From the IMG/VR virus record IMGVR_UViG_3300042946_001661, positions 1-64,000 of that record: a DNA stretch of 64,000 nucleotides. The stretch is one strand, 5' to 3'. A model generated the notes under the pieces. It searched no databases. It had not been told where the DNA came from and was given only the letters and a program-made list of their open reading frames with translations. The position numbers and the translations under genes were made by a program. Every line of letters begins with the position of its first letter. Within the stretch, counting starts at the first letter, position 1. This stretch comes from a virus. This document shows, in pieces, positions 20,240 to 35,437 of the stretch.

Positions 20240-20506
20240 ATGAATTTTAAAAATTTTTTAAACTTACCAGAAATAGAAAAAGAAGGAGTAATAAAAAAAA
20301 TAGAAAGGAACAAAAATCCTATATCAATAAAGATTGATGACTCAACAGTTGAAGGAACAGAAGTATTTCTATCTCCTTCAGAGTACAGAAGATATAAAAA
20401 AACAGGAAGATTAGAAATTGGATCAAAAGTTAAAATCTATTTACAAAAGCATCCATTAGATCAAGGAAAGGGACCCTTTCAGATATCAAGGGTAAAATTT
20501 ATATGA
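20240..20506 (+). CDS. Small putative internal protein upstream of protease
   Basis: 88 residues. MNFKNFLNLPEIEKEG is a capsid-targeting-like start with an L-P-E site. The remainder is a small beta-rich domain (SIKIDDSTVEGTEVFLSP, LEIGSKVKIYLQKHP). It overlaps the protease gene by 4 nt (ATGA), so the two proteins are made together. Function unknown. Confidence 0.5.
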   Translation: MNFKNFLNLPEIEKEGVIKKIERNKNPISIKIDDSTVEGTEVFLSPSEYRRYKKTGRLEIGSKVKIYLQKHPLDQGKGPFQISRVKFI

Positions 20507-21240
20507 AAATATTTTTATTGATATTTATAGTATTACTTAATACTACAGCTACTTTTGGAGGAACAAGAGATCCAAACACCCCAGATTCTAAATATCTTGA
20601 GTATGGAAAAAAACATAAATGTGTAATTAAAATTACAACTATAACAAAAGAAGATAAAAAAGCATACGGCTCTGCTGTGGCGATAGATCCATATTGGGTG
20701 CTAACAGCGGCACATCTTGTTAAAGATTCAATTAATGCAAAAATTATTTTAGACAACAAAGAAATAGCTATAGATGAAATATTTATTCCAGATGAATATG
20801 ATGAAAAAAAAATAGGACTGTCTGATATAGCTTTATGCAAACTAAATGAAGGTTTAGATTTAAACTTTTATCCAGAATTATATGAAAAAGAAGATGAAGT
20901 TGGAAAAGTTTGCAGCATATCTGGATTTGGTGTTACCGGAACATTTTCTTCAAAAGAAAGAATTGATGATGGAATTAGAAGGGCAGGATCTAATCAAATA
21001 GATAATATAGAAAAACACCTACTAATATGTACTCCAGGAATAAAAAATAAAACAGAATTAGAATTTTCAATATCTCATGGTGATAGCGGAGGAGGACTAT
21101 TTATAGACAGAAAGCTTGCTGGTATAAATTCTTGTGTAATGGCTGCAGATAAAAACCCAAACTCTAGCTATGGTGATGAATGTGGACACACAAGAGTCTC
21201 AATACACAGGAATTGGATTATAAATATAATTAAAAAATAA
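20503..21240 (+). CDS. Secreted trypsin-like serine protease
   Basis: 245 residues. The signal peptide is residues 1-19 (MKIFLLIFIVLLNTTATFG). The chymotrypsin-fold catalytic triad is complete: His71 in LTAAH, Asp108 in SDIAL, Ser195 in GDSGGG. RDP at the processed N-terminus does not look like a classical zymogen. The protease would act in the periplasm or outside the cell; targets are unknown. Acquisition from a cellular trypsin-like gene is plausible. Translation is coupled to the upstream 88-residue protein. Confidence 0.85.
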   Translation: MKIFLLIFIVLLNTTATFGGTRDPNTPDSKYLEYGKKHKCVIKITTITKEDKKAYGSAVAIDPYWVLTAAHLVKDSINAKIILDNKEIAIDEIFIPDEYDEKKIGLSDIALCKLNEGLDLNFYPELYEKEDEVGKVCSISGFGVTGTFSSKERIDDGIRRAGSNQIDNIEKHLLICTPGIKNKTELEFSISHGDSGGGLFIDRKLAGINSCVMAADKNPNSSYGDECGHTRVSIHRNWIINIIKK

Positions 21241-21321
21241 ATTATGGAGCACTGTTTGGTATTGATCAGCCAAATTACCAAGGTATAAAATGCTCAATAA
21301 CCAAAAAAATAAAAAACTAAG

Positions 21322-21403
21322 CACAAGAGATAGGACTCGAACCTATAGTTGCTTTTGGCGGAAGATTAACAATCTTCTGGGTCTACCATTCCCCCACTCT
21401 TGT
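21322..21403 (-). tRNA. tRNA-Asn (GUU) with long variable arm
   Basis: A cloverleaf folds by eye. Acceptor ACAAGAG pairs with CTCTTGT; discriminator G; D-stem GGG/CCC with AATGGTAGA loop; anticodon stem GAAGA/TCTTC with loop TTGTTAA giving anticodon GTT; T-stem ATAGG/CCTAT with loop TTCGAGT. The GUU anticodon and G73 discriminator both fit asparagine. The odd part is a variable region of 14 nt (usually 4-5 for Asn), making the gene 82 nt without CCA. CCA is not encoded. It sits just downstream of the IF-3 gene on the same strand. Confidence 0.85.
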
Positions 21404-21476
21404 GTGATTGTAAACTATTAATACTTTCAAAAGCGTCTGAATTTAAAGCTCAAAAAAGCCTGGAAATTTATTTAAA

Positions 21477-21752
21477 TCACTTAGCTCTATATTCTCCCCA
21501 GACTGCTTCCCATTCATCTGTTTTGGGCATTAACATAGCATCTATGTCAACTTTATCTGGATCTATGCCTGGTCCGTATGGGCTTGGTGAGTATTCCTTT
21601 TGTAGTTTTTTGATCATAGCATCTGCTATGTTGTCGTAATGATTTTGAATTGCAAGATTTATAATCTTATTTGAAAACATCAATGTAAAAAATATCAAAA
21701 AACTAAGAATCAATATAACCCAAACTAATTTTTTATCTAATAAGTCTTTCAT
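21477..21752 (-). CDS. Small N-terminally anchored membrane protein
   Basis: 91 residues. One transmembrane span (VWVILILSFLIFFTLMF, about residues 10-26) is followed by a soluble tail with SPSPYGPGIDPDKVDIDAM and ending AVWGEYRAK. An AAGGAG site precedes the ATG by 6 nt. It is probably an inner-membrane protein with the tail in the periplasm. Role unknown. Confidence 0.6.
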   Translation of the reverse strand: MKDLLDKKLVWVILILSFLIFFTLMFSNKIINLAIQNHYDNIADAMIKKLQKEYSPSPYGPGIDPDKVDIDAMLMPKTDEWEAVWGEYRAK

Positions 21753-21784
21753 TTTTTCTCCTTAATAATATTATAGTAGAATGT

Positions 21785-22342
21785 TTAGTTTTTAGGACAA
21801 AGTTTACAAATTATTTGATTTGAGGTAATAAATGGTTTTTTCTCAATTAAAAAAATATCTTCTCCAAGTTTATCTATAAACTTGTTCATCAACTCAAATC
21901 CTTTTTCTTTATTTGATAATTCTCTATTTGATTTAAATTTTAAAGTTATTTGTAGTTTTTTACCATTTTTTAAAAATTCTTTAGCATGATTTATTTTTGT
22001 GTTTAAATCGTGTTCTTCTATGCATGATTTAAATCTTATTTCTTTTGATTCTAGTGCTTTTGAATTTTTTTTCTTATCTTTTTCTTTTATTTTTTCTTGA
22101 TATGAGTACTTTTGATAGTCTAGAATATGGCAGACAGGGGGTTTTGCATTAGGTACAATTTCAACTAAATCTAAGCTTTTTTCTTGAGCAACACGAACAG
22201 CAGAATCAAGGCTCATAACTCCAAGTTGCTGTCCCTCAAAAATTACCCTTATAGGGCTGATTTTAATAGCATAATTGATTCTATGCTTAGGAAGAGGTTT
22301 GTTGGAAGAAAACCCAAATTTATTTCTGTACTTGTAACTCAT
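21785..22342 (-). CDS. infC: Translation initiation factor IF-3
   Basis: 185 residues, the bacterial length (about 180). The N-domain (RINYAIKISPIRVIFEGQQL, LDLVEIVPNAKPPVCHILDY) and the linker (QKYSYQEKIKEKDKKK) match the family closely. The C-domain (KEIRFKSCIEEHDLNTKINH, LQITLKFKSNREL) is clear but has lost several arginines that E. coli IF-3 uses to contact the 30S subunit. IF-3 controls subunit joining, start-codon choice and leaderless mRNA use. No Shine-Dalgarno site precedes its ATG. The neighbouring tRNA and bS21 suggest a translation-control cluster. Phage IF-3 genes have been reported in huge phages but are rare. Confidence 0.92.
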   Translation of the reverse strand: MSYKYRNKFGFSSNKPLPKHRINYAIKISPIRVIFEGQQLGVMSLDSAVRVAQEKSLDLVEIVPNAKPPVCHILDYQKYSYQEKIKEKDKKKNSKALESKEIRFKSCIEEHDLNTKINHAKEFLKNGKKLQITLKFKSNRELSNKEKGFELMNKFIDKLGEDIFLIEKKPFITSNQIICKLCPKN

Positions 22343-22387
22343 TTATAATAATAAAAGTGTGTTGTTAAAATTATTATAGAGTAAAAG

Positions 22388-23023
22388 CTAGTAAGTTTCA
22401 AGGTTGTTATCCAAAATATTGATAAATATTCCTTCTTTCTCTTCAGGATATTTTCTACTAGAGATGATCTCATCATCTTCGTTTTTTTCTATAACTTTAA
22501 ATTCAAGATAATACTCTCCTGGAACCCGTGTGTCATCCAAGAACCAATTGTAAACCAAATAGCTTTCTACTAAAACGTTTTGTTCGACCGTTCCATTTAG
22601 CTTTATAACATCTTCACGAACTAAGTCGTAAGTCGCACTAGAGTTCATTATTTTTATAATTTTTATATTAGTTCCTTTTTTCCAACTAGCCGGCGTAGTG
22701 CTGAAATAACCTCTAGTTACCATAATGCTGTTGTTTATTATTGTGGAAACCTGCATTAATTCATGATTGGTGCTATTTTTAAACAGAATAATATCATCTG
22801 GAACAACGGAGCTAAGACCTACGTTATCTGCTAGAAGTATTTCAAACTCACTATCGTCTATATCTTTTTTAAGCTTTGCGTCCGCCCACATACTGGCTGT
22901 TATTTCTTTACCTGTTAAGTCTATTGGGCTCATATCACAATCATATATTTTAAGCCTAACAGAGGGTTGTGTGCTATTTCTTTTTATAATGAAATCATAT
23001 TCATATTTTTTGCAGTTTGCCAT
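22388..23023 (-). CDS. Putative virion structural protein
   Basis: 211 residues, mostly beta. The pattern (YDFIIKRNSTQPSVRLKIYD, PIDLTGKEITASMW, TRGYFSTTPASWKKGT, PGEYYLEFKVI) resembles the BppU-type N-terminal domain of baseplate and fibre-attachment proteins, in which T-Q-P-x-x-x-x-L and an I-D-L-T-G turn are typical. It has a TATATATT element 3 nt before the ATG, consistent with late expression. Assignment to a structural role is moderate. Confidence 0.55.
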   Translation of the reverse strand: MANCKKYEYDFIIKRNSTQPSVRLKIYDCDMSPIDLTGKEITASMWADAKLKKDIDDSEFEILLADNVGLSSVVPDDIILFKNSTNHELMQVSTIINNSIMVTRGYFSTTPASWKKGTNIKIIKIMNSSATYDLVREDVIKLNGTVEQNVLVESYLVYNWFLDDTRVPGEYYLEFKVIEKNEDDEIISSRKYPEEKEGIFINILDNNLETY

Positions 23024-23026
23024 AAT

Positions 23027-23034
23027 AATATATA
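23027..23034 (-). promoter_or_regulatory. TATATATT late-type element
   Basis: On the minus strand TATATATT is followed by att and the ATG at 23023. The same 17-bp arrangement (aataatatatattatta) recurs almost identically before the ATG at 52033. Confidence 0.5.
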
Positions 23035-23037
23035 TTA

Positions 23038-23382
23038 TTATCTATTAACATTTATTTTTCTAATATCTCCAGATATTTTAATCTTACCAGATTCTAGTTC
23101 GGCAAGCATTTCTAAATTTATATTTTTCTTATAAAGAGAATGTAGGAATATCAAATCTTTATATTTTTTTTCAAGTTGCTTGAGCCACCTGTTTTGACAA
23201 CACAAACCTGTGTGGTCTACAAAATTTTTATATTCACCAAAAAATATAAAATATCTTAAAAAACACCTTTGAATTTTTCCTTTAAAGTATTTTAAAAGAA
23301 ACTTTTTATCTTTAGGTATTTCTAAGAATAAAAATCTCATTCCTATAAACAAACAATCATGATCCAAAATAAATTCCCTCAC
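23038..23382 (-). CDS. Hypothetical protein
   Basis: Up to 114 residues, rich in Phe, Leu and Lys, with three cysteines (GLCCQNRWL and RCFLRYF). It overlaps the upstream acidic gene by 26 nt if started at 23382; an internal ATG (MRFLFLEIPKD) gives a start with less overlap. Basic and probably helical; unrecognised. Confidence 0.45.
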   Translation of the reverse strand: MREFILDHDCLFIGMRFLFLEIPKDKKFLLKYFKGKIQRCFLRYFIFFGEYKNFVDHTGLCCQNRWLKQLEKKYKDLIFLHSLYKKNINLEMLAELESGKIKISGDIRKINVNR

Positions 23383-23857
23383 AAAACTCTAAACACAAAA
23401 TCATCATTCCGCCTGCAAACTGTTGTGGAACCCCAGCTTTGTATAAACTTTTTAATGTTTCATTAACCATTTTAATCTCTTTTGTTACATCTCCGTCTTT
23501 TTTTGCTTTATTTATATCTTCTTGAGTTATAACAATGCATTTTTCAAGAGCTTCATATGCTTTTTGAACACCTAATATTATATTAGTATTTACAACTGTA
23601 TAAATTTTATCTTTATTAAATAAACTAGATTTATCTATATTTGTATTAGGATGTGCAGATTTTTCTTCAAAAAATAATTTTATATAGTATTCTGCCAGTC
23701 CCATAGCATCTTTTCTAAAATCATCAATAGATGATATTTCTATATTTTTTAGCAAATTAATTGCTATTAGTTCTTCTGGTTCGTCTTCTATTTCATCAAA
23801 ATCATCAAAATCATCATAATAATCATCTTCGTATTTTTCCATAATTTGTTTTTTCAT
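23357..23857 (-). CDS. Hypothetical protein with acidic N-terminus
   Basis: 166 residues. Residues 8-30 are almost all Asp, Glu and Tyr (DDYYDDFDDFDEIEDEPEE); the rest is helical (DDFRKDAMGLAEYYIKLFFE, ETLKSLYKAGVPQQFAGGMM). An AAGGAG site lies 9 nt before the ATG. It could be a DNA-mimic or virion-associated protein, but nothing specific is recognised. Confidence 0.6.
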   Translation of the reverse strand: MKKQIMEKYEDDYYDDFDDFDEIEDEPEELIAINLLKNIEISSIDDFRKDAMGLAEYYIKLFFEEKSAHPNTNIDKSSLFNKDKIYTVVNTNIILGVQKAYEALEKCIVITQEDINKAKKDGDVTKEIKMVNETLKSLYKAGVPQQFAGGMMILCLEFCEGIYFGS

Positions 23858-23886
23858 TTTTGAAATGCTCCTTAATACATAACTGT

Positions 23887-24348
23887 ATGTTTAAAAAATT
23901 CTTTTTGGTTTTTTTGTTTTTAACTTTATTTTCTGGTTGTGGTGGAAATCTAAGTCCACGAAACAAACAGAATATAAATAATCCTAACGGAGATGTTCAG
24001 AATAATCAACAAGGGTTTTTGTTGGAATTAGGAAAAATGAGACAAGAAGTCGACATTATAGGAAGCAGATTAAGAGAAGTCCAAGAAGGTTTGATTAACA
24101 TAAATTCTGCTATCTCTAGGAATGAAAATTCAGGAATTCAAATTCTACAAGGAGACGGGGCTCTTTTTCTTGTGTTTAGTTGTGTTGCTCTTGTTTTTAT
24201 TTTCTATTACAAAAATAGAGAGAACGAAAAACTTCTTAAAACAGTTACAAACAAAATTGCTGAGATTAATGATGAAAATCTAACAAACAAAGTAATAGAT
24301 TCTGTCGAGCCTGCTCAAGCAAGAAAACTTATTAAGATGTTAAAATAG
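23887..24348 (+). CDS. Lipoprotein with C-terminal membrane span (possible spanin)
   Basis: 153 residues from the ATG at 23887. The first 20 residues are a lipoprotein signal ending in a lipobox (LFSGC). A soluble region of about 65 residues includes a coiled-coil-like stretch (LGKMRQEVDIIGSRLREVQE). A transmembrane span (ALFLVFSCVALVFIFYY, about residues 92-109) is followed by a 45-residue helical cytoplasmic tail. A lipid anchor plus an inner-membrane span is the topology of a one-piece spanin, which fuses the two membranes at lysis, but those normally end soon after the span. An upstream in-frame TTG at 23860 is an unlikely start. Confidence 0.55.
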   Translation: MFKKFFLVFLFLTLFSGCGGNLSPRNKQNINNPNGDVQNNQQGFLLELGKMRQEVDIIGSRLREVQEGLININSAISRNENSGIQILQGDGALFLVFSCVALVFIFYYKNRENEKLLKTVTNKIAEINDENLTNKVIDSVEPAQARKLIKMLK

Positions 24349-24362
24349 GCGGCGTCTGGAAT

Positions 24363-24536
24363 TTATTCTGAGGGTTTATTTCTTCTTTGCAATTCTTTTT
24401 TTAGTAGAGACGTTAATCCAGGTTCATTAACTATTTCCATTTCTGGCTTAACTTCTTTGAAGATTGATTCTACTTCTTCTGTGGGTAATCCAGCTCTCTT
24501 GCTGACTTCTTCTAAATCTTCTTTGGACATTTTCAT
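24363..24536 (-). CDS. Small helical hypothetical protein (57 aa)
   Basis: MKMSKEDLEEVSKRAGLPTE begins a helix-turn-helix-like pattern, followed by a charged helix. I place the start at 24536 because TGAGG lies 6 nt and AGGAGG 11 nt upstream; an in-frame GTG at 24548 overlaps these sites. It is one of three small genes between the lipoprotein and bS21. Function unknown. Confidence 0.55.
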   Translation of the reverse strand: MKMSKEDLEEVSKRAGLPTEEVESIFKEVKPEMEIVNEPGLTSLLKKELQRRNKPSE

Positions 24537-24567
24537 TTTGAGCCTCACCTCCTGGGGTCACTCGACT

Positions 24568-24801
24568 CTATCTCAGATAAAAGCCTTCACAGTTATCTGC
24601 AGTTGGAAGACACAACCTATCCGGTTCTATTTTATTTTTTTCACAAAAATGAAAAAAATCTTTAACTTCTTGGTCTATTAATTGTTTTTTTAAAGTTTTT
24701 TTTAAACAATAATAATTATTATTGTTCTCGCCCAAATATCTGCATGTTTTTGAGTTGTGTCCAGCCAAACAAACTTCATCTATTTGTTTTTTTGTTAACA
24801 T
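24568..24801 (-). CDS. Small cysteine-rich hypothetical protein (77 aa)
   Basis: Five cysteines and two histidines in the order CLAGHNSKTCRYL, YYCLKK, FHFCEKNK, LPTADNCEGFY suggest a zinc-stabilised mini-domain. It lies directly downstream of the bS21 gene on the same strand and may be co-transcribed with it. No ribosome site is obvious. Confidence 0.55.
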   Translation of the reverse strand: MLTKKQIDEVCLAGHNSKTCRYLGENNNNYYCLKKTLKKQLIDQEVKDFFHFCEKNKIEPDRLCLPTADNCEGFYLR

Positions 24802-24856
24802 TTTTAATAGTCTTATTTGATGAAGCGAATTTTATCAAGGCGTAAGAATTTGTCAA

Positions 24857-25087
24857 TCAAAAATTTTCAGGTTTTGAATTTTTCTTTCTTATTAAATTCA
24901 TCTCTTTTTTCTTTCTTCTTCTTTTTTCTCCAGGACTTTCATAAAATTCTCTTTTTTTAACTTCCTGAAGAACTCCGCTATCTGATATTACTTTCTTAAA
25001 AATATTCAAACCTCTTTTGAACAAATCTTCCTTTTCTCTTTGAGAAAGATTGTGATGACCATCTTCTTTTAATATTCTAATTTTCAT
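24857..25087 (-). CDS. rpsU: Ribosomal protein bS21
   Basis: 76 residues. The conserved core is plain: LFKRGLNIFKKVISDSGVLQ followed by EVKKREFYESPGEKRRRKKK, matching the bacterial S21 pattern (F-K-R, G-V-L-x-E-x-x-x-R-x-F-Y-E-x-P, then a basic helix). bS21 sits beside the anti-Shine-Dalgarno end of 16S rRNA and affects mRNA selection at initiation. Phage copies are known and are thought to replace the host protein on ribosomes. A strong AAGGAG site lies 8 nt before the ATG. The IF-3 gene is 2.5 kb away on the same strand. Confidence 0.9.
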   Translation of the reverse strand: MKIRILKEDGHHNLSQREKEDLFKRGLNIFKKVISDSGVLQEVKKREFYESPGEKRRRKKKEMNLIRKKNSKPENF

Positions 25088-25114
25088 TTAAAGTCTCCTT
25101 CTAATAATAGAGTT

Positions 25115-26257
25115 TCATTCTTTTGGAATTTTTATAAATCTTGTTCCAAATTTTTTATTTTTGATTTTTCTAACATCTTCTATAATTACTTTTTTATTAA
25201 ACTCAGATGTTGTGTTCCAAGTATCTCTGTCTAAGTACGGTAAAAAATTCATTAAATTATTTTTAATATTAACAAAAATGTCATTTTTCCAAGAACTCAA
25301 ATTTCCATTAACTATACTGTTTGTGAAGTAGAATTGAATTTTATTCGGTGTTTCTATTGCTGTGTAGTTGTATAATTCATTTTCCTTTGTATTAAAGTAT
25401 CTTGTTCTCTCATCAAAAATCAAAGATGGTGTTCTTGATAATTTTGATAGCCAAGATAAATCATTAAACAAGTCTAGGGTGCATCCCGTTAGTCTTATAG
25501 AAGATAAAACTTTAGATATATCATATTCATTTACAAATATACAATCTGTTTTATTTGTAAATTCATTTGTTAAATCAAACCCTGTTGGGTGATTCCATAT
25601 AACAGGAAAAATATTTTCACTCTTCAAATATTTTATTAATTCTATATAAAAATCCTTATTAGATCTAACTTTTATATTTCTTCCATCCGCCCAAGAGTTC
25701 AAATAAATAGAAGGATGAAGAAAAACCTTATACCCAGAATTTTCATTTATTGACCTGAGGGTGTCTTTTCCTAAGATTGCAGAACTTGGAATCATAGGAA
25801 AGTTTAATATAATATCTTCGTATTCTTTCCAAAATTTTTCTTTAAAACCATTTTTATAATACAAATTAAAAGTGCTCGAATTAATTACGTTTCTATAATT
25901 TTCATTGAAGCTTCTTAATAATTCTAAATATGTTTTTGATTTATTTTCAAATTCATTTGAATTTTCATAAATATTTTTAAAAAATTTGAAATCAGATAAA
26001 CTCCAATACTCGTCTGCCTCTTTAAACAAGTGTGAGAATCCTGGGTAGGAACAGACTATAATATATTTTGAATTTTTTGTTTTATTTTTATAGTGATCAA
26101 ATAGTATTGATGAAAAAATAAAAGAATGTTTAAAATCACAAAATATAGGTATAAAAAGAAGATTGTCTAAGTCTGTTGGAACTTTTGAATCAAAAAAAAC
26201 TTCTCTTTTAAAGCCTATTCTTTCTGAGGAAACATTCAAGAAATTAATAGTGTTCAT
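25115..26257 (-). CDS. Glycosyltransferase-like protein (GT-B type, putative)
   Basis: 380 residues. Alternating hydrophobic strands and helices (NLLFIPIFCDFKHSFIFSSI, YIIVCSYPGFSHLF, KVFLHPSIY, FPVIWNHPTGFDL, LSSIRLTGCTLDLFNDLSWL) suggest two Rossmann-like halves as in GT-B transferases of the heptosyltransferase type. No catalytic motif is certain. Together with the next gene, of similar length and layout, it may form a pair acting on surface or virion glycans. Confidence 0.4.
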   Translation of the reverse strand: MNTINFLNVSSERIGFKREVFFDSKVPTDLDNLLFIPIFCDFKHSFIFSSILFDHYKNKTKNSKYIIVCSYPGFSHLFKEADEYWSLSDFKFFKNIYENSNEFENKSKTYLELLRSFNENYRNVINSSTFNLYYKNGFKEKFWKEYEDIILNFPMIPSSAILGKDTLRSINENSGYKVFLHPSIYLNSWADGRNIKVRSNKDFYIELIKYLKSENIFPVIWNHPTGFDLTNEFTNKTDCIFVNEYDISKVLSSIRLTGCTLDLFNDLSWLSKLSRTPSLIFDERTRYFNTKENELYNYTAIETPNKIQFYFTNSIVNGNLSSWKNDIFVNIKNNLMNFLPYLDRDTWNTTSEFNKKVIIEDVRKIKNKKFGTRFIKIPKE

Positions 26258-26260
26258 AAA

Positions 26261-27379
26261 TCACCAGTTCAACAATCCCTTTTTATCTAAAGCGTGTTTT
26301 ACCATATTTTTATCTTCAGTTAAATCTAAAACATAGTCCCAATTATCTTTTTTTATTTCATGTATAGACTTTTCTATAGATAACAAGCCTTTTTCTGTAT
26401 CATTTAAAAATGATACATAATTAGATATTATTATCTTTTTTTTGTTAAAATCAGAACTAGCTGCTATTCTACTTCCTTCTTGTCCTCTAAGAGCCAACTG
26501 ATCTGCGGATTCTACGAGTATAAAAGGAGTTTTTACAATTGAACTCAATCTTGTCGATGCTGTCCAGAGTTGAATGCTAAACTCTACACAACTTAATACA
26601 GCCAATGTAAATTCTAAATTTTTTACCATAGCAGTGTTAGAAAAATCAATACAATTTTCCATTTTTAAACTTGATACATTTTCTCCAAGATAAACAGGAG
26701 TAAAATCATTAGAAACCAAAATTTTATTTAATTTATAATAAAAATCTTTAGGTAAATTTCTACCATATGTTTTTCTGTTTCTTGCAAAAACAGCAACTGC
26801 TTTATTTGGAACTATTTTTTTAATTTCATTTAAATAATCTTCTTTTGGTTTTGGAATACTTCTTGAAAATTTTTTATTTTGTATATCTCCTAATAAAGGA
26901 GGGGAGATATTTTTATTACCACATCTTGGACATAAATCAAAAAAAGCATAGCTCGAATGAAAACATTTTTTACAAACATATGTGATTAAAAAATTGCCAA
27001 GATATTGACTTTTAAAAAGTATGCCTATTTTTTTTAGTTCTTTCTCTAATAAATCTATGTTTTTAGACCTAGTCCAAAAAGCATTACAAGAATCTTTTAA
27101 CCAATAATCATCTTCTTTTAATTCCCAAAACTCATCAACTAAATGTCTATAAAAATATTCCCTTCCAGTCCATCCAACTAATATTATATAATATCCATTA
27201 AAAATATTTAATAATTGTGGTATAGAATAATTACAAGCTAAAGTTTCTACTCCCAATTCACAAAAATTAGTAATAATTAAAATCTTATCTAGTTTTTTCT
27301 TTTTTGTAAATTTATAGACATTAAAACAAAAATTATCTATTTTTTTTTCTTTGATATGCTTGTTTTTAATAAAAAGCAT
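26261..27379 (-). CDS. Glycosyltransferase-like protein with zinc-ribbon insertion
   Basis: 372 residues. A zinc ribbon (CKKCFHSSYAFFDLCPRCGN, about residues 135-154) is inserted between two Rossmann-like halves. The second half has AVAVFARNRKTYGRNLP, DFYYKLNKILVSNDFTPVYL and FSIQLWTASTRLSSIVKTPF, resembling GT9/GT-B donor-binding domains. It lies 3 nt upstream of the similar gene at 25115-26257. Confidence in enzymatic activity is modest. Confidence 0.45.
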   Translation of the reverse strand: MLFIKNKHIKEKKIDNFCFNVYKFTKKKKLDKILIITNFCELGVETLACNYSIPQLLNIFNGYYIILVGWTGREYFYRHLVDEFWELKEDDYWLKDSCNAFWTRSKNIDLLEKELKKIGILFKSQYLGNFLITYVCKKCFHSSYAFFDLCPRCGNKNISPPLLGDIQNKKFSRSIPKPKEDYLNEIKKIVPNKAVAVFARNRKTYGRNLPKDFYYKLNKILVSNDFTPVYLGENVSSLKMENCIDFSNTAMVKNLEFTLAVLSCVEFSIQLWTASTRLSSIVKTPFILVESADQLALRGQEGSRIAASSDFNKKKIIISNYVSFLNDTEKGLLSIEKSIHEIKKDNWDYVLDLTEDKNMVKHALDKKGLLNW

Positions 27380-27385
27380 TTTATA

Positions 27386-27913
27386 TCATTTAGGTTCCGG
27401 TGTGAATCTTAGTGCACCTATCTGATCGCTAATTTTGTCAATCATAGATGCTACTTTTCCCATCTCTTTTTTAATAGAGTCTAATTCTTTTTCTTTAACA
27501 CCCATCGCATGTTTAGATAAAAATTGAACCTCTAAGTCGTATAGTTTTTTCTTCAATTCATTAAGTTTATCTAAACTTTCACCTTCAGTCCAATCGTCTG
27601 TTGGTTTATTTTTTGCATCTCTACCCAAATTTGAATAATCTACTGGGTTGCTACTTTTTGCTACCTTAGATGTTTTATTTTCATTTAATAGTTGAGCTTC
27701 TGAATAATTTGCAATATCATTCCAATAAGAGACACCATCTTGTTCTGGATCTAATTCTGAATCTTTGATATTAATCTGTCCGAAGAAATTAGATTTTCCG
27801 TCCTCTATTTCTTTGGGTTTTAGGTCAGACTTTGGAAATAAACCATCTTTTAATGCTTTATCCCATTGTTGTGTCCACTTATCGAACTGATCTTCCATGT
27901 TATTGTTGCTCAT
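27386..27913 (-). CDS. Hypothetical acidic protein with C-terminal coiled coil
   Basis: 175 residues. The first 110 residues are polar and acidic with little predicted structure; residues 112-165 form a heptad-like helix (LDKLNELKKKLYDLEVQFLS, KELDSIKKEMGKVASMIDKI). It has a TATATATA element 6 nt before the ATG, so late expression and a structural or scaffold role are possible. Unrecognised. Confidence 0.55.
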   Translation of the reverse strand: MSNNNMEDQFDKWTQQWDKALKDGLFPKSDLKPKEIEDGKSNFFGQINIKDSELDPEQDGVSYWNDIANYSEAQLLNENKTSKVAKSSNPVDYSNLGRDAKNKPTDDWTEGESLDKLNELKKKLYDLEVQFLSKHAMGVKEKELDSIKKEMGKVASMIDKISDQIGALRFTPEPK

Positions 27914-27919
27914 AATAAT

Positions 27920-27927
27920 TATATATA
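27920..27927 (-). promoter_or_regulatory. TATATATA late-type element
   Basis: On the minus strand TATATATA lies 6 nt before the ATG at 27913, with no Shine-Dalgarno site. Confidence 0.4.
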
Positions 27928-28394: not shown

Positions 28395-28842
28395 CATTTT
28401 CAATAATTTTAGATTTTATTAAAATGTTTTTTTCTTTATCTACAAGATCTTCAGAGTTATATGTTTTTAGAGTTGACCAATGAGGGTCATCTTTTGGAAT
28501 ATATTCTTTTTTAGTATAATAAAAAAATTCTGCTATGTATTCGTATTCTTTATTTTCAACTTCATCAACACTCATACCTGAAAGGCGATCATGCAAAATT
28601 TCTTTTAATACTTTTACCGAATCAATCCATCTGGCTTTTGCCATCTTTTGAATAATAGCAAGAGCTGAATACGCATTGTTTTCTAATGCATTTATTACAT
28701 CTTTTTTAAGATCTCCTGGTCCGAATTTTGCTTTTGTTGTATAACATGCAATTACTTCATCTTTGCTAGGTTTATATTTTAAAGAAACATCTTTGAAGTA
28801 TTCTGAAAAATTACTTTCATCAATTATCAACTCTTTGCTCAT
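28390..28842 (-). CDS. Hypothetical protein downstream of DnaE C-terminal piece
   Basis: 150 residues, charged and helical (LKKDVINALENNAYSALAII, YIAEFFYYTKKEYIPKDDPH). It overlaps the end of the DnaE C-terminal piece by 23 nt, so it is probably translated from the same message. It could be a polymerase accessory protein by position only; no family recognised. Confidence 0.5.
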   Translation of the reverse strand: MSKELIIDESNFSEYFKDVSLKYKPSKDEVIACYTTKAKFGPGDLKKDVINALENNAYSALAIIQKMAKARWIDSVKVLKEILHDRLSGMSVDEVENKEYEYIAEFFYYTKKEYIPKDDPHWSTLKTYNSEDLVDKEKNILIKSKIIENV

Positions 28843-30517
28843 CTTTTTCCTTTTTTCTAAGAACTACTATTCTGTAGTCGTCTTCTTTATTAACAGTACT
28901 TTTTTTGAAAAAATTTCTTGGTCCAGTGCTAGCTATTGTGTATGTCTTGAAGCCTTTGCTTGGGGCACTTAATCTTACTCTAAGCAAACTTCCAGGAACT
29001 AATTCATTTTGAAAATTAGCATAATCATCTTTCCATACATTTATAAGACCTTCATCACAATTACAATCTTCTGCTTTTACCTGATAGTATTCTGCCTTTT
29101 TACCTTTCTTTTTACTACAAGATATTACCTCTATTTCCACAGGAAGAGTATCTCCAGAATCAGGCTCTAGTGTGTCGAAGGTTAATCCTCCCCTATAATC
29201 CGGACTGTCCTTTACATTACTGTGCCAAGCAAATCCATAATACTTCTTTTCACAGGCTACTAAATCATCAAATTCTTTTTTCAAGTTTTTATCAATTTTA
29301 GAATCATCAATAACAAAACCTTCTAGTCTAGGTTTCTCCAAATCTTCTTTATCTTCATATCTTTTTTTGGCAGTCTGTATCTTGTTAATCATTTTACATA
29401 TGTTTTTCCAAGCATCTTTGTTATTAATAATAAGTTTTAAATATCTCTTTTTCCAATCATCACATGATTTACTGCCAATTTTCAAAGAATCTAAATCAAT
29501 ATAGTCTATCTCCCCACTAACTACTTTATTTTTAATAAAATCAGTATTCTCTGCCTCCTTGATCATTGAATAAAGAATCTCTTTATTTTTTTTTGCTGTA
29601 TTTGCATACCTTTTTTTTCTATCTTGATTTTTCTTTATATAATCTTTATATTTTTCAGAGAACATAAAAAGAGTGTAAGGATCCGAATCGGAGAAGCACC
29701 TAAGAGAAAGTAATGGCTTTAATACACTAGAATCTGTTCCGAATCTTTCAACAAAATCTTCAAAGTTTTTATATGGCTGTCTCTTTACTATTTCTTTTGC
29801 TATAGGCTCTCCTATTCCTTTTATATTAGAAAAACCAAAATAAATATCATCTCCTATAAGGCTGAAGTTTTCTTTAGACAAATTAATATCAACAGGCTTT
29901 AAATCTATTTTATGCTTAGTTATTTCTTTTCTATATTCTTTAATTTTATCGGCATCATTTTCACATGTTAAAATTGCAGTATAAAACTCATGAGGAAAAT
30001 GAGACTTTAAATATAAAAGTCTTGAACTAATATGAGTATAACATACTGCATGACTTTTATTGAAGCCATATTCTGCAAAACTTTCAATAAGTTTCCATAA
30101 ATTTTCTAATTCTTCTTCAGAAGAATCCAAGTTCTTTTTTCCATTATTAATAAATGTTTCTTTGTATTTAATAAACTGTTCTACTTTTTTCTTACTAATA
30201 GCCTTTCTTACAGCTTCAACATCTCTCATTGGAATATTTCCAACCATGTTCAATATTTTCATTACTTGTTCTTGGTATACAATTACCCCATAAGTATCTT
30301 TTAATATTTCGTTTAAAATAGGATGTAATTTATATTCTTCTCTGCCTCTTTTTCTTTCTATGAATCTTTCATGCATTTTACAGTTATGAACAACAATATC
30401 TTGAGCAATAAAATTAGGCTCATCGATATAAAGATCATCTTCAATGATTAAAGAAATATCATAACATTCATCTTCGTCAACTTTTTCTATAGAAATTATT
30501 TCATCATAATCAATCAT
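28820..30517 (-). CDS. dnaE: DNA polymerase III alpha (DnaE), C-terminal piece led by C-intein
   Basis: 565 residues. The first 45 residues are the C-terminal half of a split intein, ending IVVHN before a Cys. From there the DnaE sequence resumes mid-domain: CKMHERFIERKRG, YGVIVYQEQVMKILNMVGN, YGFNKSHAVCYTHIS (fingers), a helix-hairpin-helix stretch (FSNIKGIGEPIAKEIVKRQP), and a C-terminal OB-fold-like region (LPVEIEVISCS, ELVPGSLLRVRLS). It lacks the PHP and catalytic palm, which are on the other two pieces, so it should work only after trans-splicing with the product of 31562-32875. Confidence 0.9.
   Translation of the reverse strand: MIDYDEIISIEKVDEDECYDISLIIEDDLYIDEPNFIAQDIVVHNCKMHERFIERKRGREEYKLHPILNEILKDTYGVIVYQEQVMKILNMVGNIPMRDVEAVRKAISKKKVEQFIKYKETFINNGKKNLDSSEEELENLWKLIESFAEYGFNKSHAVCYTHISSRLLYLKSHFPHEFYTAILTCENDADKIKEYRKEITKHKIDLKPVDINLSKENFSLIGDDIYFGFSNIKGIGEPIAKEIVKRQPYKNFEDFVERFGTDSSVLKPLLSLRCFSDSDPYTLFMFSEKYKDYIKKNQDRKKRYANTAKKNKEILYSMIKEAENTDFIKNKVVSGEIDYIDLDSLKIGSKSCDDWKKRYLKLIINNKDAWKNICKMINKIQTAKKRYEDKEDLEKPRLEGFVIDDSKIDKNLKKEFDDLVACEKKYYGFAWHSNVKDSPDYRGGLTFDTLEPDSGDTLPVEIEVISCSKKKGKKAEYYQVKAEDCNCDEGLINVWKDDYANFQNELVPGSLLRVRLSAPSKGFKTYTIASTGPRNFFKKSTVNKEDDYRIVVLRKKEKDEQRVDN
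30383..30517 (-). other. C-terminal half of split intein in DnaE
   Basis: 45 residues. Block F is ECYDISLIIEDDLYIDEPNF and block G is VVHN followed by the +1 extein cysteine. It starts its own ORF with an ATG, as expected for a C-intein. It pairs with the N-half at 31565-31849. Confidence 0.88.
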
Positions 30518-31523
30518 TTTTTATACTTTCAAAAAAATTAATAACCCTTTTGTCGTTGCGAAACTTTTTTCTACTCATGTTACAATCATTGAACTGCCAG
30601 TAATGAAAAAGAAAATTATTTTCTATCGCATAACTTTCACCAGCCTTTAATTTTGCTTCAGATTTTTCGGCATCAATTTGATAAACATATCCTGATTTTA
30701 ACTCTACTAAAAATTTTTCATTAATTAAAAAATCCGGAAAATATTTTTTATTTTTGCCGCAATAATTATAAGCAATACAACAAGGTGTTGCAAACCAAGA
30801 TTTAACATATGGGGAATCATCTAGTAGTTCGGAGAGCCATAATTCAAGTCTCGATCTAAGAAAAAAATCACAATTCATTTTTTTTGAATAGAATGACTTG
30901 CCTGTGCTACTAAATACATAGTCAGGATGAACTTTTCGATAATTATTATTACAGTCTTTAGAGCAAAATTTAATTTTAGGTCTTGGCTTTCCTCCAACCC
31001 ATATAATAATTTGTTTATCACAAAATGCACAATTACTATATTTGGCTTTGCCTTTAGCCAAAGGGTATAATCTCTGGTAGTCTTCGGGTGTCCGCTTTTC
31101 TCTCAATTGTTTAAGCTTTTCATTCCCGGCAGATGTGAAAGCAAATAATAATTTTTTTCTTTCTTCGGGAGAAACAGATTTAACCTTACTAACCCAAGCG
31201 TCTGACGCCATTTTAACAACTTTTTTTCTAGTCTCTGGTTTGAGGATATCTCCTTTTTCATATGCTTTTTTCATACGCTCAGATCTATTTTTTTTAACAT
31301 GTGCTTGATTGCTATAATCTTTGACTTTTTTAGCAATTGAAAATACAGTCTCATTAGATTCTTTGGTTTCACCTTTATTCCAAACATCGGGTATTTGATT
31401 TTTATATTCTTCTGTTTGCTCGGGAAACATTTGCAAATACTTCGTTTTTTTAATTTTATGAGACGAGTTTAAATGTCTGTAAAATTTGTCTGAAATTTCT
31501 CTATTGCATAATTTACATATCAT
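30510..31523 (-). CDS. PD-(D/E)XK homing endonuclease between intein halves
   Basis: 337 residues. An N-terminal zinc finger (CKLCNREISDKFYRHLNSSH) and helical repeats like NUMOD-type DNA-binding modules (RSERMKKAYEKG, KPETRKK) are followed by a four-cysteine knot (CAFCDKQ, FCSKDC). The C-terminal nuclease fold has RSRLELWLSELL, YFPDFLI and LVELKSG giving the E, D and E-x-K residues. It lies between, and overlaps by 8 nt, the halves of a split-intein gene. That is the published 'fractured gene' arrangement in which a Vsr-related free-standing nuclease separates split-intein coding halves. Confidence 0.8.
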   Translation of the reverse strand: MICKLCNREISDKFYRHLNSSHKIKKTKYLQMFPEQTEEYKNQIPDVWNKGETKESNETVFSIAKKVKDYSNQAHVKKNRSERMKKAYEKGDILKPETRKKVVKMASDAWVSKVKSVSPEERKKLLFAFTSAGNEKLKQLREKRTPEDYQRLYPLAKGKAKYSNCAFCDKQIIIWVGGKPRPKIKFCSKDCNNNYRKVHPDYVFSSTGKSFYSKKMNCDFFLRSRLELWLSELLDDSPYVKSWFATPCCIAYNYCGKNKKYFPDFLINEKFLVELKSGYVYQIDAEKSEAKLKAGESYAIENNFLFHYWQFNDCNMSRKKFRNDKRVINFFESIKND

Positions 31524-31561
31524 TGTAGCCTCCAGGACTATTCAATAATATGTAGGAGATT

Positions 31562-32875
31562 TTATTTTAATTTTTTAGCAATTTTTTGCCCAACAGATAA
31601 TTTTTCGGCTTCAATAAATTCATCTTTATCGGTAAGGATTTTATGTTCATTTGAACACAAAATTACTTTTCCAGATTTAGTTTTAATTTTTAATAATTTT
31701 TTATAACCAGTTTTTATTAAAATAAATTTTTCAGTATATTTAATTTTCTTTTTTTTACTTAAATAGGCAATTTTATCTAACCCAGGCTTCAAATCTTTTA
31801 TTTTTTTATATCCAAGATTTGTATTAACTTTTACATCTTTTTGAAGACAATTCAAAGGACCTGGACGATATAATGATGAGTAGGCAACAAGATCTTCAAA
31901 TCTTGTAACACCACCAGCTTTAGCTAATGATCTAATACCTGGGCTATCAAACTGAAAGATACATTTAAGGTCTCCTTCATTAGCCATTTCTAGGGATTTT
32001 AAATCATTCCTATACTCATCTATGTTGCTCCAATTGCCTTGACCAGGAAATGCACATATTTTATCAATACCTTTTCTATCTTTTATAAGCTTACAACACT
32101 TTGCAATCTGAAGAAGATTACTGATCACAAGCAAATCAAATTTAACAAGTCCTACTGGCTGTAGATCTTGTCCATGAAGACCTTCTACCCAAGCACTTGC
32201 CTGAGGGCTATCTTTTCTTTTTATAAGAGGAACAAGATCGGTTAAAGGAATAGAGCTTACAATCAAACCTCCAGCATGTATACCTGTCCCTCTGTTTCTA
32301 TTAATTAGTTTTTGAGCAGCCTTTGCTATATCTGGGTGTTCTTCGCAGTATTTCTTAAGCATAGGATCAGTTTTCATAGCTGAATCCCATGTGAGAACTT
32401 TTCCTTCATCATCTTTTGTTTGAAGATTTGTTGTTAAAGCGAGTATTTCTCCTCTTTCTTCTCCGTGAACTCTAACCATATCGATAAGAGAGGATTTAAT
32501 ACCAAAAGTAGTATAGTTTCCTATATTACAGACATATTGCTCTCCAAATGTTTTAGGAGCCCATTCATTCTTTAAAAAATCACGAACAGCAGGAATAAAA
32601 TCCACATCGATATCCGGAGAATCACCTTGTACATAATTTGGATCTTTTTCTATATCAAAATTTGGTACTATTTCTAGTAGCCAACACACCAAAAGATTAT
32701 TTTCATTATCTGGATAATTTACATTTCTGGTCACCATATCTAGAAAGTAATTTTCCTTATTTTGAGAAATTATCTCTTGTTTTTCCCATTCTAATCTTTT
32801 TTGATATCTTTTATCTTCATACAATCCTTTTTCTTTTAATTTTTCTTCACAAATTTTAAATATGTTTGATTTCAT
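31562..32875 (-). CDS. dnaE: DnaE middle (catalytic) piece ending in N-intein
   Basis: 437 residues: 342 of DnaE then 95 of intein. All three catalytic aspartates are here: two in SPDIDVDFIP and one in LVKFDLL. Other DnaE blocks are NRGTGIHAGGLIVS, CIFQFDSPGIRSLAKAGGVT and YSSLYRPGPLN, where the extein stops. Splicing would join PGPLN to CKMHERF on the C-terminal piece, rebuilding the usual DnaE sequence. A promoter-like TATATAAT lies upstream. The piece starts about 2.5 kb away from the PHP-domain piece, with opposite-strand genes between. Confidence 0.9.
   Translation of the reverse strand: MKSNIFKICEEKLKEKGLYEDKRYQKRLEWEKQEIISQNKENYFLDMVTRNVNYPDNENNLLVCWLLEIVPNFDIEKDPNYVQGDSPDIDVDFIPAVRDFLKNEWAPKTFGEQYVCNIGNYTTFGIKSSLIDMVRVHGEERGEILALTTNLQTKDDEGKVLTWDSAMKTDPMLKKYCEEHPDIAKAAQKLINRNRGTGIHAGGLIVSSIPLTDLVPLIKRKDSPQASAWVEGLHGQDLQPVGLVKFDLLVISNLLQIAKCCKLIKDRKGIDKICAFPGQGNWSNIDEYRNDLKSLEMANEGDLKCIFQFDSPGIRSLAKAGGVTRFEDLVAYSSLYRPGPLNCLQKDVKVNTNLGYKKIKDLKPGLDKIAYLSKKKKIKYTEKFILIKTGYKKLLKIKTKSGKVILCSNEHKILTDKDEFIEAEKLSVGQKIAKKLK
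31565..31849 (-). other. N-terminal half of split intein in DnaE
   Basis: 95 residues. Block A is CLQKDVKVNTNLGYKKIKDL with Cys1; block B is KTKSGKVILCSNEHKILT with the conserved His. The half ends at a natural stop codon after AKKLK, and no endonuclease domain is fused. The insertion point (PGPLN/C) differs from that of the well-known cyanobacterial DnaE split intein. Confidence 0.88.
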
Positions 32876-32934
32876 AAAAATATTTTTATTACTCTATATT
32901 ATATATAGATTATCTACTCACATCAAGGACATAT

Positions 32935-34029
32935 ATGAAAAAATCAATGAAAAAAGCAATTCTTATTTACAAAGAAGGAAAATCAATAGAAAAGTCCGCA
33001 GCTGAAGCGGAAGTATCTTTTCAAGGACTTCAATATCAACTTAAAAAACTTGGTTTAACAAGAAGTGCCGAAGAAGCCGCTCACAAGAGCTATACATCAG
33101 AGAGTTTAAAAGAAGCATTGAGTCTTTACGAAAATGGAAAAAGTTTAAATGAAGTTAATAAAATAACAAAGGTTTCTCTACACACATTGAGAAAAGAAAT
33201 AAAAAGATTAAAAATATCAAAAAAGAAAATTATTAAATATGATCATATATTAGAAAAATCAATAGATTTATACTTATCAGGATTATCCACCATAAAGGTA
33301 AAAAATATAACTGGTATAGGGCTTGGCAAGTTAACAAAAAATCTTAAAAAAAGAGGGCTTATTCGTAGTAATAAAATAAATTCAAGAAAATATCATGTAA
33401 ATTATGATTTTTTTAAAAATATAGATAATGAACACAAAGCGTATTGGCTTGGTTTTATTTATGCTGACGGTTACATTAGCCGAATAAATAAAAATAAAAA
33501 AATTGGAATATCATTAAACATAAAAGATATGGATCATCTAGAGGTTTTTAAAAAACAAATTAATGCTACATATCCAATAAATATTTATAAGTCGAAGTCT
33601 TTTGGAGGAGTAGAAATAGAATATTGCAGACTACTTATTACTTCAGATCAATTGTTTGATGATTTAATTGACAAAGGAGTTTTCGAAAAAAAGACATTAA
33701 TATTAAAATTTCCAAATGAATCTATAGTTCCAAAAAACTTACAACATCATTTTATAAGAGGATATTTTGATGGTGATGGATCTTTCAAAAAAAGTAATGG
33801 TAAATATTATGTTTTTAATCTATGTGGTACAAAAGAATTTCTACTAAAATGTCAAGAAATACTTCATAAAAATACAAAACTAGAAAAAAGGCACAAGGAT
33901 AATAAAAACAACTATAGTTTTTCGATAGGAGGCAGATTACAAGCCAAAAAAATAGGTGATTACTTATACAAGAATGCTACTGTATACTTAGAAAGAAAAT
34001 ATAACAGATATAAAGAAATGTGTTTTTAA
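32935..34029 (+). CDS. LAGLIDADG homing endonuclease with helix-turn-helix repeats
   Basis: 364 residues. Residues 1-145 contain three helix-turn-helix repeats (AILIYKEGKSIEKSAAEAEV, ALSLYENGKSLNEV, SIDLYLSGLSTIKV). The C-terminal 225 residues hold two LAGLIDADG motifs, YWLGFIYADGYI and HFIRGYFDGDGSF, both with intact acidic residues, so an active single-chain endonuclease is likely. An AAGGA site precedes the ATG. It occupies the gap between two pieces of the DnaE gene, on the opposite strand. Confidence 0.88.
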   Translation: MKKSMKKAILIYKEGKSIEKSAAEAEVSFQGLQYQLKKLGLTRSAEEAAHKSYTSESLKEALSLYENGKSLNEVNKITKVSLHTLRKEIKRLKISKKKIIKYDHILEKSIDLYLSGLSTIKVKNITGIGLGKLTKNLKKRGLIRSNKINSRKYHVNYDFFKNIDNEHKAYWLGFIYADGYISRINKNKKIGISLNIKDMDHLEVFKKQINATYPINIYKSKSFGGVEIEYCRLLITSDQLFDDLIDKGVFEKKTLILKFPNESIVPKNLQHHFIRGYFDGDGSFKKSNGKYYVFNLCGTKEFLLKCQEILHKNTKLEKRHKDNKNNYSFSIGGRLQAKKIGDYLYKNATVYLERKYNRYKEMCF

Positions 34030-34053
34030 TTAAATAAAATTTTAGTACAGATG

Positions 34054-34061
34054 TATAAATA
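34054..34061 (+). promoter_or_regulatory. T4-like late promoter core TATAAATA
   Basis: An exact TATAAATA is followed by a typical AGGAG site and the ATG at 34078. This is a conventional late-promoter layout and shows the phage uses this core sequence. Confidence 0.55.
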
Positions 34062-34077
34062 TAATCAAAGGAGTAAA

Positions 34078-34251
34078 ATGAAAGTAGACAAGAAAAACGC
34101 CATGATTGGCGGAGTCTGTGCTGGTTTGTCGGATTCAACTGGGATACCGACTGCGGTTTTTAGGCTTGCTTTTCTATTTGCATTTTTACTTGCTGGGATG
34201 GGTCCTATAATTTATATCATTTTATGGATCATGATGCAAACAAAAGAATAA
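34078..34251 (+). CDS. PspC-domain small membrane protein
   Basis: 57 residues from the ATG at 34078, chosen because AGGAG lies 5 nt upstream; an in-frame ATG at 34051 lies before the promoter and ribosome site. The pattern is the PspC domain: AMIGGVCAGLSDSTGIPTAV, then a hydrophobic span (LAFLFAFLLAGMGPIIYIIL). In bacteria PspC is a membrane sensor of the phage-shock response, so a phage copy might interfere with envelope-stress signalling. It shares an operon with the acidic repeat gene that follows. Confidence 0.8.
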   Translation: MKVDKKNAMIGGVCAGLSDSTGIPTAVFRLAFLFAFLLAGMGPIIYIILWIMMQTKE

Positions 34252-34261
34252 TGGAGAAAAA

Positions 34262-35209
34262 ATGCCTTTCAAAAAATTTAATGAATTCTTAAACGAACAA
34301 AAGAAAAATAAGAAGACTAAAAAAAGTGATAAAAAGGCATTAGGAATTAGTGGCGATAAGTCTCTTGTTTATAAACCAAAAGTTCATAAATATGATAAAA
34401 TTAAAGACAAGGGACTCGGAAATATTGGAGATGAAAAAAACATCTACGAACCAGACACAGGTCCAGAGCTACAGAAAAAAGCTCCAGAATGGCATAAAAC
34501 AAACATTAAAGAATGGTTAAACAAAACAAAAAAATTATCTGTTTCTGAATTTGCAAAAAAAATTCAAGAAGAAAAAAGTGTAAAAGTAAATATTAATAAA
34601 ATAAAAAATGCTGAAGATCTTATTGGCAATTTTGTAGAAACATTAAAAAGCAATCCAAAATTAATAGAGGTTGCATCAAGAGAGTTTAACAGATCCGGAT
34701 TACTTGAAGGTTTTATTGTAGAGCTCAGTAAAATAAAAAGATCAAAAAGAATACACGAATCAATTAGTGAGCCTGTTGGGTTTGAAGACGAAGAAGGCAT
34801 GGAAGGCATGGAAGATGAAGAAGGCATGGAAGGCATGGAAGATGAAGAAGGCATGGAAGATGAAGAAGGCATGGAAGATGAAGAAGGCATGGAAGACGAA
34901 GAAGGCATGGAAGACGAAGAAGGCATGGAAGACGAAGAAGGCATGGAAGACGAAGAAGGCATGGAAGACGAAGAAGGCATGGAAGACGAAGAAGAAGGTT
35001 ATAGACGCCATCGTCATCGTCACCATCATCATGACGAAGAAGATGATGAGTTTGGGGACGAAGAAATGGAAGATGAAGATGATAGCGAAAATTTAGATAG
35101 CGATGATCTTGAGGATCATGGTTATAATAAAAACCAAGATATGGAAGATGATTCGCCCCTAGGGAGAAGATCTGGCATGCGTAGGGATTATTTTTCAGAC
35201 GAAATTTAA
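34262..35209 (+). CDS. Acidic-repeat putative internal protein
   Basis: 315 residues. It starts MPFKKFNEFLNEQKK, a capsid-targeting-like sequence with an L-N-E site. Residues 1-165 are a lysine-rich helical region (WLNKTKKLSVSEFAKKIQEE). Then come about eleven E-D-E-E-G-M repeats from an 18-bp DNA repeat, a His/Arg cluster (YRRHRHRHHHHDEE), and another acidic stretch. A basic head plus strongly acidic tail could bind DNA or counter-ions in the capsid. That role is inference. Confidence 0.6.
   Translation: MPFKKFNEFLNEQKKNKKTKKSDKKALGISGDKSLVYKPKVHKYDKIKDKGLGNIGDEKNIYEPDTGPELQKKAPEWHKTNIKEWLNKTKKLSVSEFAKKIQEEKSVKVNINKIKNAEDLIGNFVETLKSNPKLIEVASREFNRSGLLEGFIVELSKIKRSKRIHESISEPVGFEDEEGMEGMEDEEGMEGMEDEEGMEDEEGMEDEEGMEDEEGMEDEEGMEDEEGMEDEEGMEDEEGMEDEEEGYRRHRHRHHHHDEEDDEFGDEEMEDEDDSENLDSDDLEDHGYNKNQDMEDDSPLGRRSGMRRDYFSDEI
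34784..34992 (+). repeat. 18-bp tandem repeat coding for acidic hexapeptides
   Basis: Unit gaagaaggcatggaagac (gat in early copies) is repeated about eleven times, with extra ggcatggaa insertions in the first copies. It is coding in the plus frame; antisense and shifted frames are also open only because the repeat lacks stops. Confidence 0.9.
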
Positions 35210-35212
35210 AAA

Positions 35213-35236
35213 ATAAACAATTAACAATTAACAATT
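35213..35236 (+). repeat. Short aacaatt direct repeats
   Basis: Three tandem copies of aacaatt(a) lie in the gap before the ATG at 35244, next to TATAAT. They may be a promoter-proximal binding site or simple A/T repeat. Confidence 0.5.
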
Positions 35237-35243
35237 ATAATTT

Positions 35244-35423
35244 ATGAAAAGTTTTAAACAATTCAAAGAAGAAAAAGAAAAAGAAGAACTAAAAAATAAT
35301 GATAGGGTAGCAAAAGCTATAAAAATGGGAAATGCCGCGGGCAGTCTTCCACTTAGCTCTCATAAAGAACGAAACGAACGAAGAAAAGACAACATCCCGT
35401 CGAAGTACTACAAAGGAAAGTGA
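35244..35423 (+). CDS. Small putative internal protein (59 aa)
   Basis: It begins MKSFKQFKEEKEKEELKNND, one of the clearest capsid-targeting-like starts in the window, and continues as a basic, polar peptide (HKERNERRKDN, SKYYKGK). TATAAT lies 3 nt before the ATG and there is no Shine-Dalgarno site. Probably late and head-associated by analogy with its siblings. Confidence 0.5.
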   Translation: MKSFKQFKEEKEKEELKNNDRVAKAIKMGNAAGSLPLSSHKERNERRKDNIPSKYYKGK

Positions 35424-35437
35424 AATAATTTACTAAA

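Follow-up and report, generated by a model that had tools for sequence, protein, structure and literature searches.

Genes for IF1, IF3 and ribosomal protein S21 have been described in huge phages and proposed to redirect host translation (PMC7162821), and the same retuning proposal has been made for phage AP-J-162, which encodes IF-3, S21 and L7/L12 (PMC11242549). The retuning idea itself is therefore already published for huge phages. Here we analysed positions 1 to 64,000 (the window) of the 83,588-base virus record IMGVR_UViG_3300042946_001661, in which bS21 and IF-3 are encoded near each other on the minus strand, and compared this locus with related phage genomes. Judged by the gene maps, the bS21/IF-3 pair is a stable, linked and non-random part of a large-phage clade. 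Phages with both genes were known before; we found no report of the conserved linkage or of its clade-wide conservation in the literature searched, the supplements of which lay outside the search, and the physical linkage of bS21 and IF-3 was not found described in the main text of PMC7162821.

The phage LR756511 (595 kb, PMC7162821) combines IF3, bS21 and peptide deformylase in a single genome. Its gene order is the same as in the window (genes are named here by their first coordinate): the homologue of 25115, bS21, deformylase, the homologues of 24568 and 22388, and IF-3. However, the window lacks the deformylase and the thiamine-pyrophosphate (TPP) enzyme in this block. Sinorhizobium phages AP-J-162 and Phosso and Agrobacterium phage Atu_ph07 also possess both IF-3 and bS21 and fall under the same published proposal (PMC11242549), but their IF-3 lies upstream of bS21, has ClpX and topoisomerase neighbours, and is placed elsewhere in the IF-3 tree. 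The bS21-encoding Bacteroidetes phages of Chen et al. 2022 (PMC9723584) are comparable as freshwater large phages in which phage bS21 is linked to late expression. In contrast to the present locus, their bS21 is found among capsid and terminase genes, and IF-3 is not named among the commonest bS21 neighbours in 900 phages.

Both proteins could be assigned to their families with confidence. The bS21 gene (rpsU, 24857..25087, minus strand, 76 amino acids) scored 45.6 bits against PF01165 (cut-off 27) and 40 bits against TIGR00030 (cut-off 29). Its product has the S21 domain with the basic REFYE..KRRRK core, in the window version KKREFYESPGEKRRRKKK, and its profile matches solved bS21 chains. The IF-3 gene (infC, 21785..22342, minus strand, 185 amino acids) is complete, with two domains scoring 87.8 bits for PF05198 (cut-off 26.9) and 74.8 bits for PF00707 (cut-off 34.8), at E values of 5e-25 and 5e-21, and it has no Shine-Dalgarno (SD) site at its start. 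It reached 153.4 bits against the NCBIfam infC equivalog TIGR00168 (cut-off 60) and aligned along its whole length with the solved E. coli and Thermus IF-3 structures, with ~37-43% identity to the best bacterial matches. When the window IF-3 was the sole query, the single match was another assembly of the same phage; this second assembly, of 60.9 kb and in another record, shows 100% identity across 15.7 kb.

The earlier note had described a translation-initiation cluster of tRNA-Asn, IF-3 and bS21. The three genes are real, each far above chance, and lie on the minus strand within 3.8 kb, at coordinates that the note gave correctly to within one base. The word cluster needs correction, as they do not form a contiguous unit: the 2,514 bases between bS21 and IF-3 hold six called genes, including 23887-24348 on the opposite strand, and the tRNA is not conserved there. 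The tRNA-Asn gene (anticodon GTT, 21321..21403, minus strand) was detected by ARAGORN and by the Rfam tRNA model (53.8 bits, E 1e-9). The corresponding regions of four related loci (G006, G014/G015, G016 and G017) contained no tRNA. An operon including the tRNA was rejected on this ground, and by this comparison the tRNA is a separate local gene and not part of the conserved block. Its long variable region, well beyond the family-consensus length, is unusual for tRNA-Asn.

Relatives were sought with tail sheath, helicase, bS21, IF-3 and DnaE queries, and whole records were then searched for both families. Gene maps showed a collinear block in 14 distinct contigs of up to 595 kb (the window, G006, G014, G016 (381 kb), G017, G021, G022, G029, G030, G038, G039, G041, G042 and LR756511 (595 kb)). 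The order is DnaE, 28390, 27386, 26261, 25115, bS21, (peptide deformylase), 24568, (23887, opposite strand), 23357, 23038, 22388, (TPP enzyme), IF-3 and 21477. Both bS21 and IF-3 were present in all 13 block contigs covering both sites; G017 stops short of the IF-3 site and is not among them. In these contigs bS21 was always upstream of IF-3 on the same strand, at a spacing of 2.3-13.7 kb, and no block member with a broken bS21 or IF-3 frame was seen. Peptide deformylase lies between the two genes in nine contigs, and is missing from the window and its nearest kin. The selection is biased, as many block contigs came from bS21 or IF-3 queries; in the fair subset, found with the sheath query (G006) or the DnaE query (G038, G039, G041 and G042), both genes were nevertheless present in five of five. 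The co-occurrence in related phages, which the earlier note had put forward as a check, is thus non-random, although these counts concern related genomes and not independent events. Neither gene was present in 13 contigs of 74-162 kb that carry DnaE but are more distantly related. G009 and G010 were unusable as negative controls for the pair, because these contigs do not cover the block.

In the larger relatives (L063, L061), the interval between the 22388 and 21477 homologues additionally holds a TPP enzyme immediately ahead of IF-3, followed by an aldehyde dehydrogenase and DnaJ. Some phage-labelled records with IF-3 look bacterial, e.g. OR844993 and MK672802, the latter with threonine-tRNA ligase, IF-3, L35 and L20 consecutively, which is a bacterial arrangement.

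A phylogeny of IF-3 against bacterial copies, a check put forward in the earlier note, was built from 103 sequences. The 13 block members formed one group (SH-aLRT 92), and the IF-3s of Atu_ph07, Phosso, XaC1 and other Al-Shayeb phages were placed elsewhere. Block IF-3s are often only ~40% identical to each other. Comparison of the IF-3 tree with that of gene 25115 gave 3 of 10 splits in common (random mean 0.27), including a supported group of the window, G030 and G006. The single IF-3 group and its agreement with the 25115 tree fit one old gain of the block IF-3 followed by vertical descent.

From these data we infer, as a fairly probable reading, that phage bS21 and IF-3 act on the host 30S subunit in late infection and favour phage mRNAs. 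The block would be an old, vertically inherited core of a large-myovirus clade, encoding phage versions of bS21 and IF-3 and, in most of the larger relatives, also peptide deformylase. Late in infection, phage bS21 would take the place of host bS21 on 30S subunits, phage IF-3 would bind the same subunits, and the phage-modified initiation complex would favour phage mRNAs. The family domains retained by both proteins support this reading. Both genes also co-occur outside the block, in separate IF-3 lineages, which points in the same direction: they are far apart in LR756501 and LR756504 and close, with IF-3 first, in Phosso and Atu_ph07. G035 and G028 likewise hold both genes outside the block. 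Pelagiphage bS21 is known to enter E. coli 70S ribosomes (PMC6375957), and in Bacteroidetes phages bS21 is transcribed late (PMC9723584).

Several observations weigh against this reading. E. coli ribosomes with pelagiphage bS21 are only ~5% active, and a requirement for additional viral or host factors was suggested in that study (PMC6375957). G023-G027 have IF-3 without bS21 and two larger contigs, G036 and G037, have bS21 without IF-3; all lie outside the block and may be incomplete, but they indicate that the two genes do not depend on each other in every phage. In addition, a single shared bS21/IF-3 transcript is unlikely, since an opposite-strand gene intervenes. As inferred from strand and gaps only, bS21 and IF-3 most likely belong to different transcription units, bS21 within the gene run beginning at 27386 and IF-3 after 23357, 23038 and 22388.

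The low activity of the hybrid ribosomes would be explained if bS21 and IF-3, with the deformylase in relatives, formed a co-evolved phage initiation module. With phage bS21 in place, host 30S subunits would then function poorly together with host IF-3 but well with its diverged phage counterpart, and the phage-modified ribosomes would initiate mainly on phage mRNAs, leaderless ones included. We regard this tighter arrangement as quite unlikely.

The deformylase found in the same block of relatives, together with the wider translation gene sets of huge phages (PMC7162821), may instead point to general support, in which the pair would uphold initiation capacity during host shut-off, or replace host factors lost through host defences or the shut-off, while mRNA preference stays unchanged. 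The same idea is put forward in PMC7162821 for elongation factors and deformylase. However, the window IF-3 is diverged (~37-43% identity to the best bacterial matches) with changes at mostly bacterially kept positions, whereas a plain supply gene need not diverge, and this explanation seems unlikely to us. The pair is also only one element among many conserved genes of no assigned function in a single collinear block, as would be expected of passengers gained from hosts by chance and kept only as the core block rarely breaks. Such an origin is very improbable, because the domains are intact across deep divergence (~40% identity often) and genome sizes to 595 kb, deformylase, TPP enzyme and aldehyde dehydrogenase come and go while the pair stays, and the pair also arises in other IF-3 lineages.

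Arginines of the IF-3 C-terminal domain (R99, R112, R116, R147 and R168 in E. coli numbering) matter for 30S binding. In the window IF-3 these positions are K99, N112, E116, K147 and N168, while R133, E134 and K110 are retained; the E. coli row of the residue alignment agrees with the solved chain. Among 14 phage sequences (13 block members plus G028), N occupies position 168 in 11, versus 3 of 79 bacterial sequences, and position 112 in 7, versus 4 of 79. The bacterial set was drawn from the 80 best hits of the phage profile and is thus not a random sample. Positions 112 and 116 vary in some bacterial IF-3s too.

The earlier note had also distinguished two classes of gene starts in the window, and both exist: AGGAG-type sites precede some genes, and starts of the TATATAT type are more frequent than in dinucleotide shuffles. 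The classes were counted with a simple gene caller, which took the first ATG and a minimum length of 80 amino acids, in the first genes of presumed transcription units, with TATATA at -14 to -10. Of the 57 first genes of the window, 9 belonged to the TATATA class (shuffle mean 0.7, max 3), which was found elsewhere in G006 (12/58), G030 (8/88), G002 (8/48), G041 (16/204), G014 (4/75), G009 (9/74) and G010 (6/97); three distant controls had none. Pooled over six contigs, the TATATA positions peaked at -11/-12, were sparse from -20 to -16 and spread again further upstream. An SD site accompanied 0 of 66 proximal cases (-14 to -10) versus 58 of 106 distal cases (beyond -20), an exclusion that is partly mechanical for the proximal motif, which occupies the SD position.

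A TA-like hexamer ~12 bp before the start codon is a mark of leaderless genes in bacteria (PMC3160421). The TA-led leaderless genes of Zheng et al. 2011 (PMC3160421) likewise have no SD site; they differ from the present cases, which are in phage genomes, have the word TATATA and no visible -35 signal, and have starts predicted from sequence. Because of the bimodal position, the restriction of SD sites to distal cases and the match to this leaderless mark, TATATATT is best read as a promoter element: where it adjoins the ATG, the mRNA probably begins at the ATG with no leader, and where it lies further upstream there would be room for an SD site. A ribosome-binding signal was rejected as its function, since the bimodal position and SD pattern fit a promoter at two distances. 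One such element (23029..23036, minus strand), 13 bases before the ATG of 22388, is predicted to act as the promoter of a leaderless mRNA, which might extend into IF-3. A TATATATA-type element (27920..27927, minus strand), 14 bases before the ATG of 27386, is predicted to drive transcription of the unit that holds bS21. Scans of the surroundings of the locus for sigma-70 promoters and terminators stayed close to shuffle level.

E. coli IF-3 antagonises leaderless mRNAs (PMC9031893), and it is conceivable that the pair serves such mRNAs, phage IF-3 being a weakened gatekeeper that tolerates 5'-terminal AUGs and phage bS21 altering the platform likewise. The clear excess of leaderless-type starts in the window, G006, G030 and G041, and less so in G014, would agree with this, as would the changes of the window IF-3 at R99, R112, R116, R147 and R168, among them the phage-enriched 168N. 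However, G021 (0/88) and G038 (2/100) carry both genes and N168 without the class, and G016, which also has both, shows it weakly (7/260). Conversely, G041 has the class yet keeps R168, and positions 112 and 116 are not constant in bacteria. The proposed tie of the pair to the start classes was therefore not borne out: R168N does not track the class, and the pair does not, or not simply, serve it. A role in leaderless initiation is accordingly doubtful, and by this distribution the TATATATT starts are a neighbouring fact and not the reason for the pair.

A 185-amino-acid protein (60437-60994) is found in all relatives checked, including contigs not covering the bS21/IF-3 block. It has a sigma-like stretch, KFSTYCKAIVW, and is a candidate transcription factor. 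No significant family, PDB or fold match supported a T4 gp55-like sigma; its models were poor from the single sequence (pLDDT 44) and moderate from eight sequences (pLDDT 72).

An exceptionally long, autoregulatory SD before rpsU is typical of Bacteroidota bS21 (PMC9976891). Direct reading of the window shows an SD-like site, AGAAGGAG, before bS21 (25095..25102, minus strand). In the relatives the site is weaker or missing and the extended form is not kept, and autoregulation of the Bacteroidota type was rejected for this bS21.

The remaining block genes of the window are on the minus strand unless stated. Gene 27386..27913 (175 amino acids, conserved) opens the bS21-holding run and is followed by 26261..27379 (372 amino acids, conserved) and 25115..26257 (380 amino acids, directly 5' of bS21 in all block members), the latter two from no named family. 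Gene 24568..24801 (77 amino acids, conserved) has no assigned function; in relatives, peptide deformylase lies between bS21 and its homologue. The opposite-strand open reading frame (ORF) at 23887..24348 (plus strand) is kept between bS21 and IF-3 in most block members. The conserved ORFs 23357..23857, with an AAGGAG site before its start, and 23038..23382 have no assigned function. The 211-amino-acid protein of 22388..23023, which precedes IF-3 in every block member, shows a weak likeness to phage tail proteins. The 91-amino-acid ORF 3' of IF-3 (21477..21752) has no named domain and is kept by several block members.

The contig encodes tail sheath, tail tube, sheath stabiliser, UvsX-like recombinase and single-strand-binding proteins, which identify the 83.6-kb sequence as a myovirus fragment. 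A trypsin-like protease gene (20503-21240, plus strand) adjoins the tRNA and is common to the nearest relatives. DnaE is in pieces at 35438-36826, 31562-32875 (with an N-intein-like end) and 28820-30517 (starting like a C-intein that ends HN-C). An endonuclease-like ORF (30510-31523) lies between two of the pieces, and a homing-endonuclease-like ORF (32935-34029) is on the other strand. By eye, the region 28820-36826 resembles a split intein accompanied by a free-standing endonuclease. It also includes an acidic ORF (34262-35209) with tandem EDEEGME repeats at 34765-34980.

What makes the locus most interesting is the persistence of the bS21/IF-3 pair throughout a deep clade, for which reason the two proteins deserve to be tested as partners. 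Most discussions of phage ribosomal proteins take them singly, and the block gives a defined set of parts (bS21, IF-3 and often deformylase) that can be tested together. It also bears on the published puzzle that phage bS21 enters E. coli ribosomes that are yet only ~5% active (PMC6375957), for which the IF-3 of the same phages would be a natural candidate for the further factor needed. The predicted leaderless class, in turn, raises the question of whether these phages deliberately mix leaderless and SD mRNAs.

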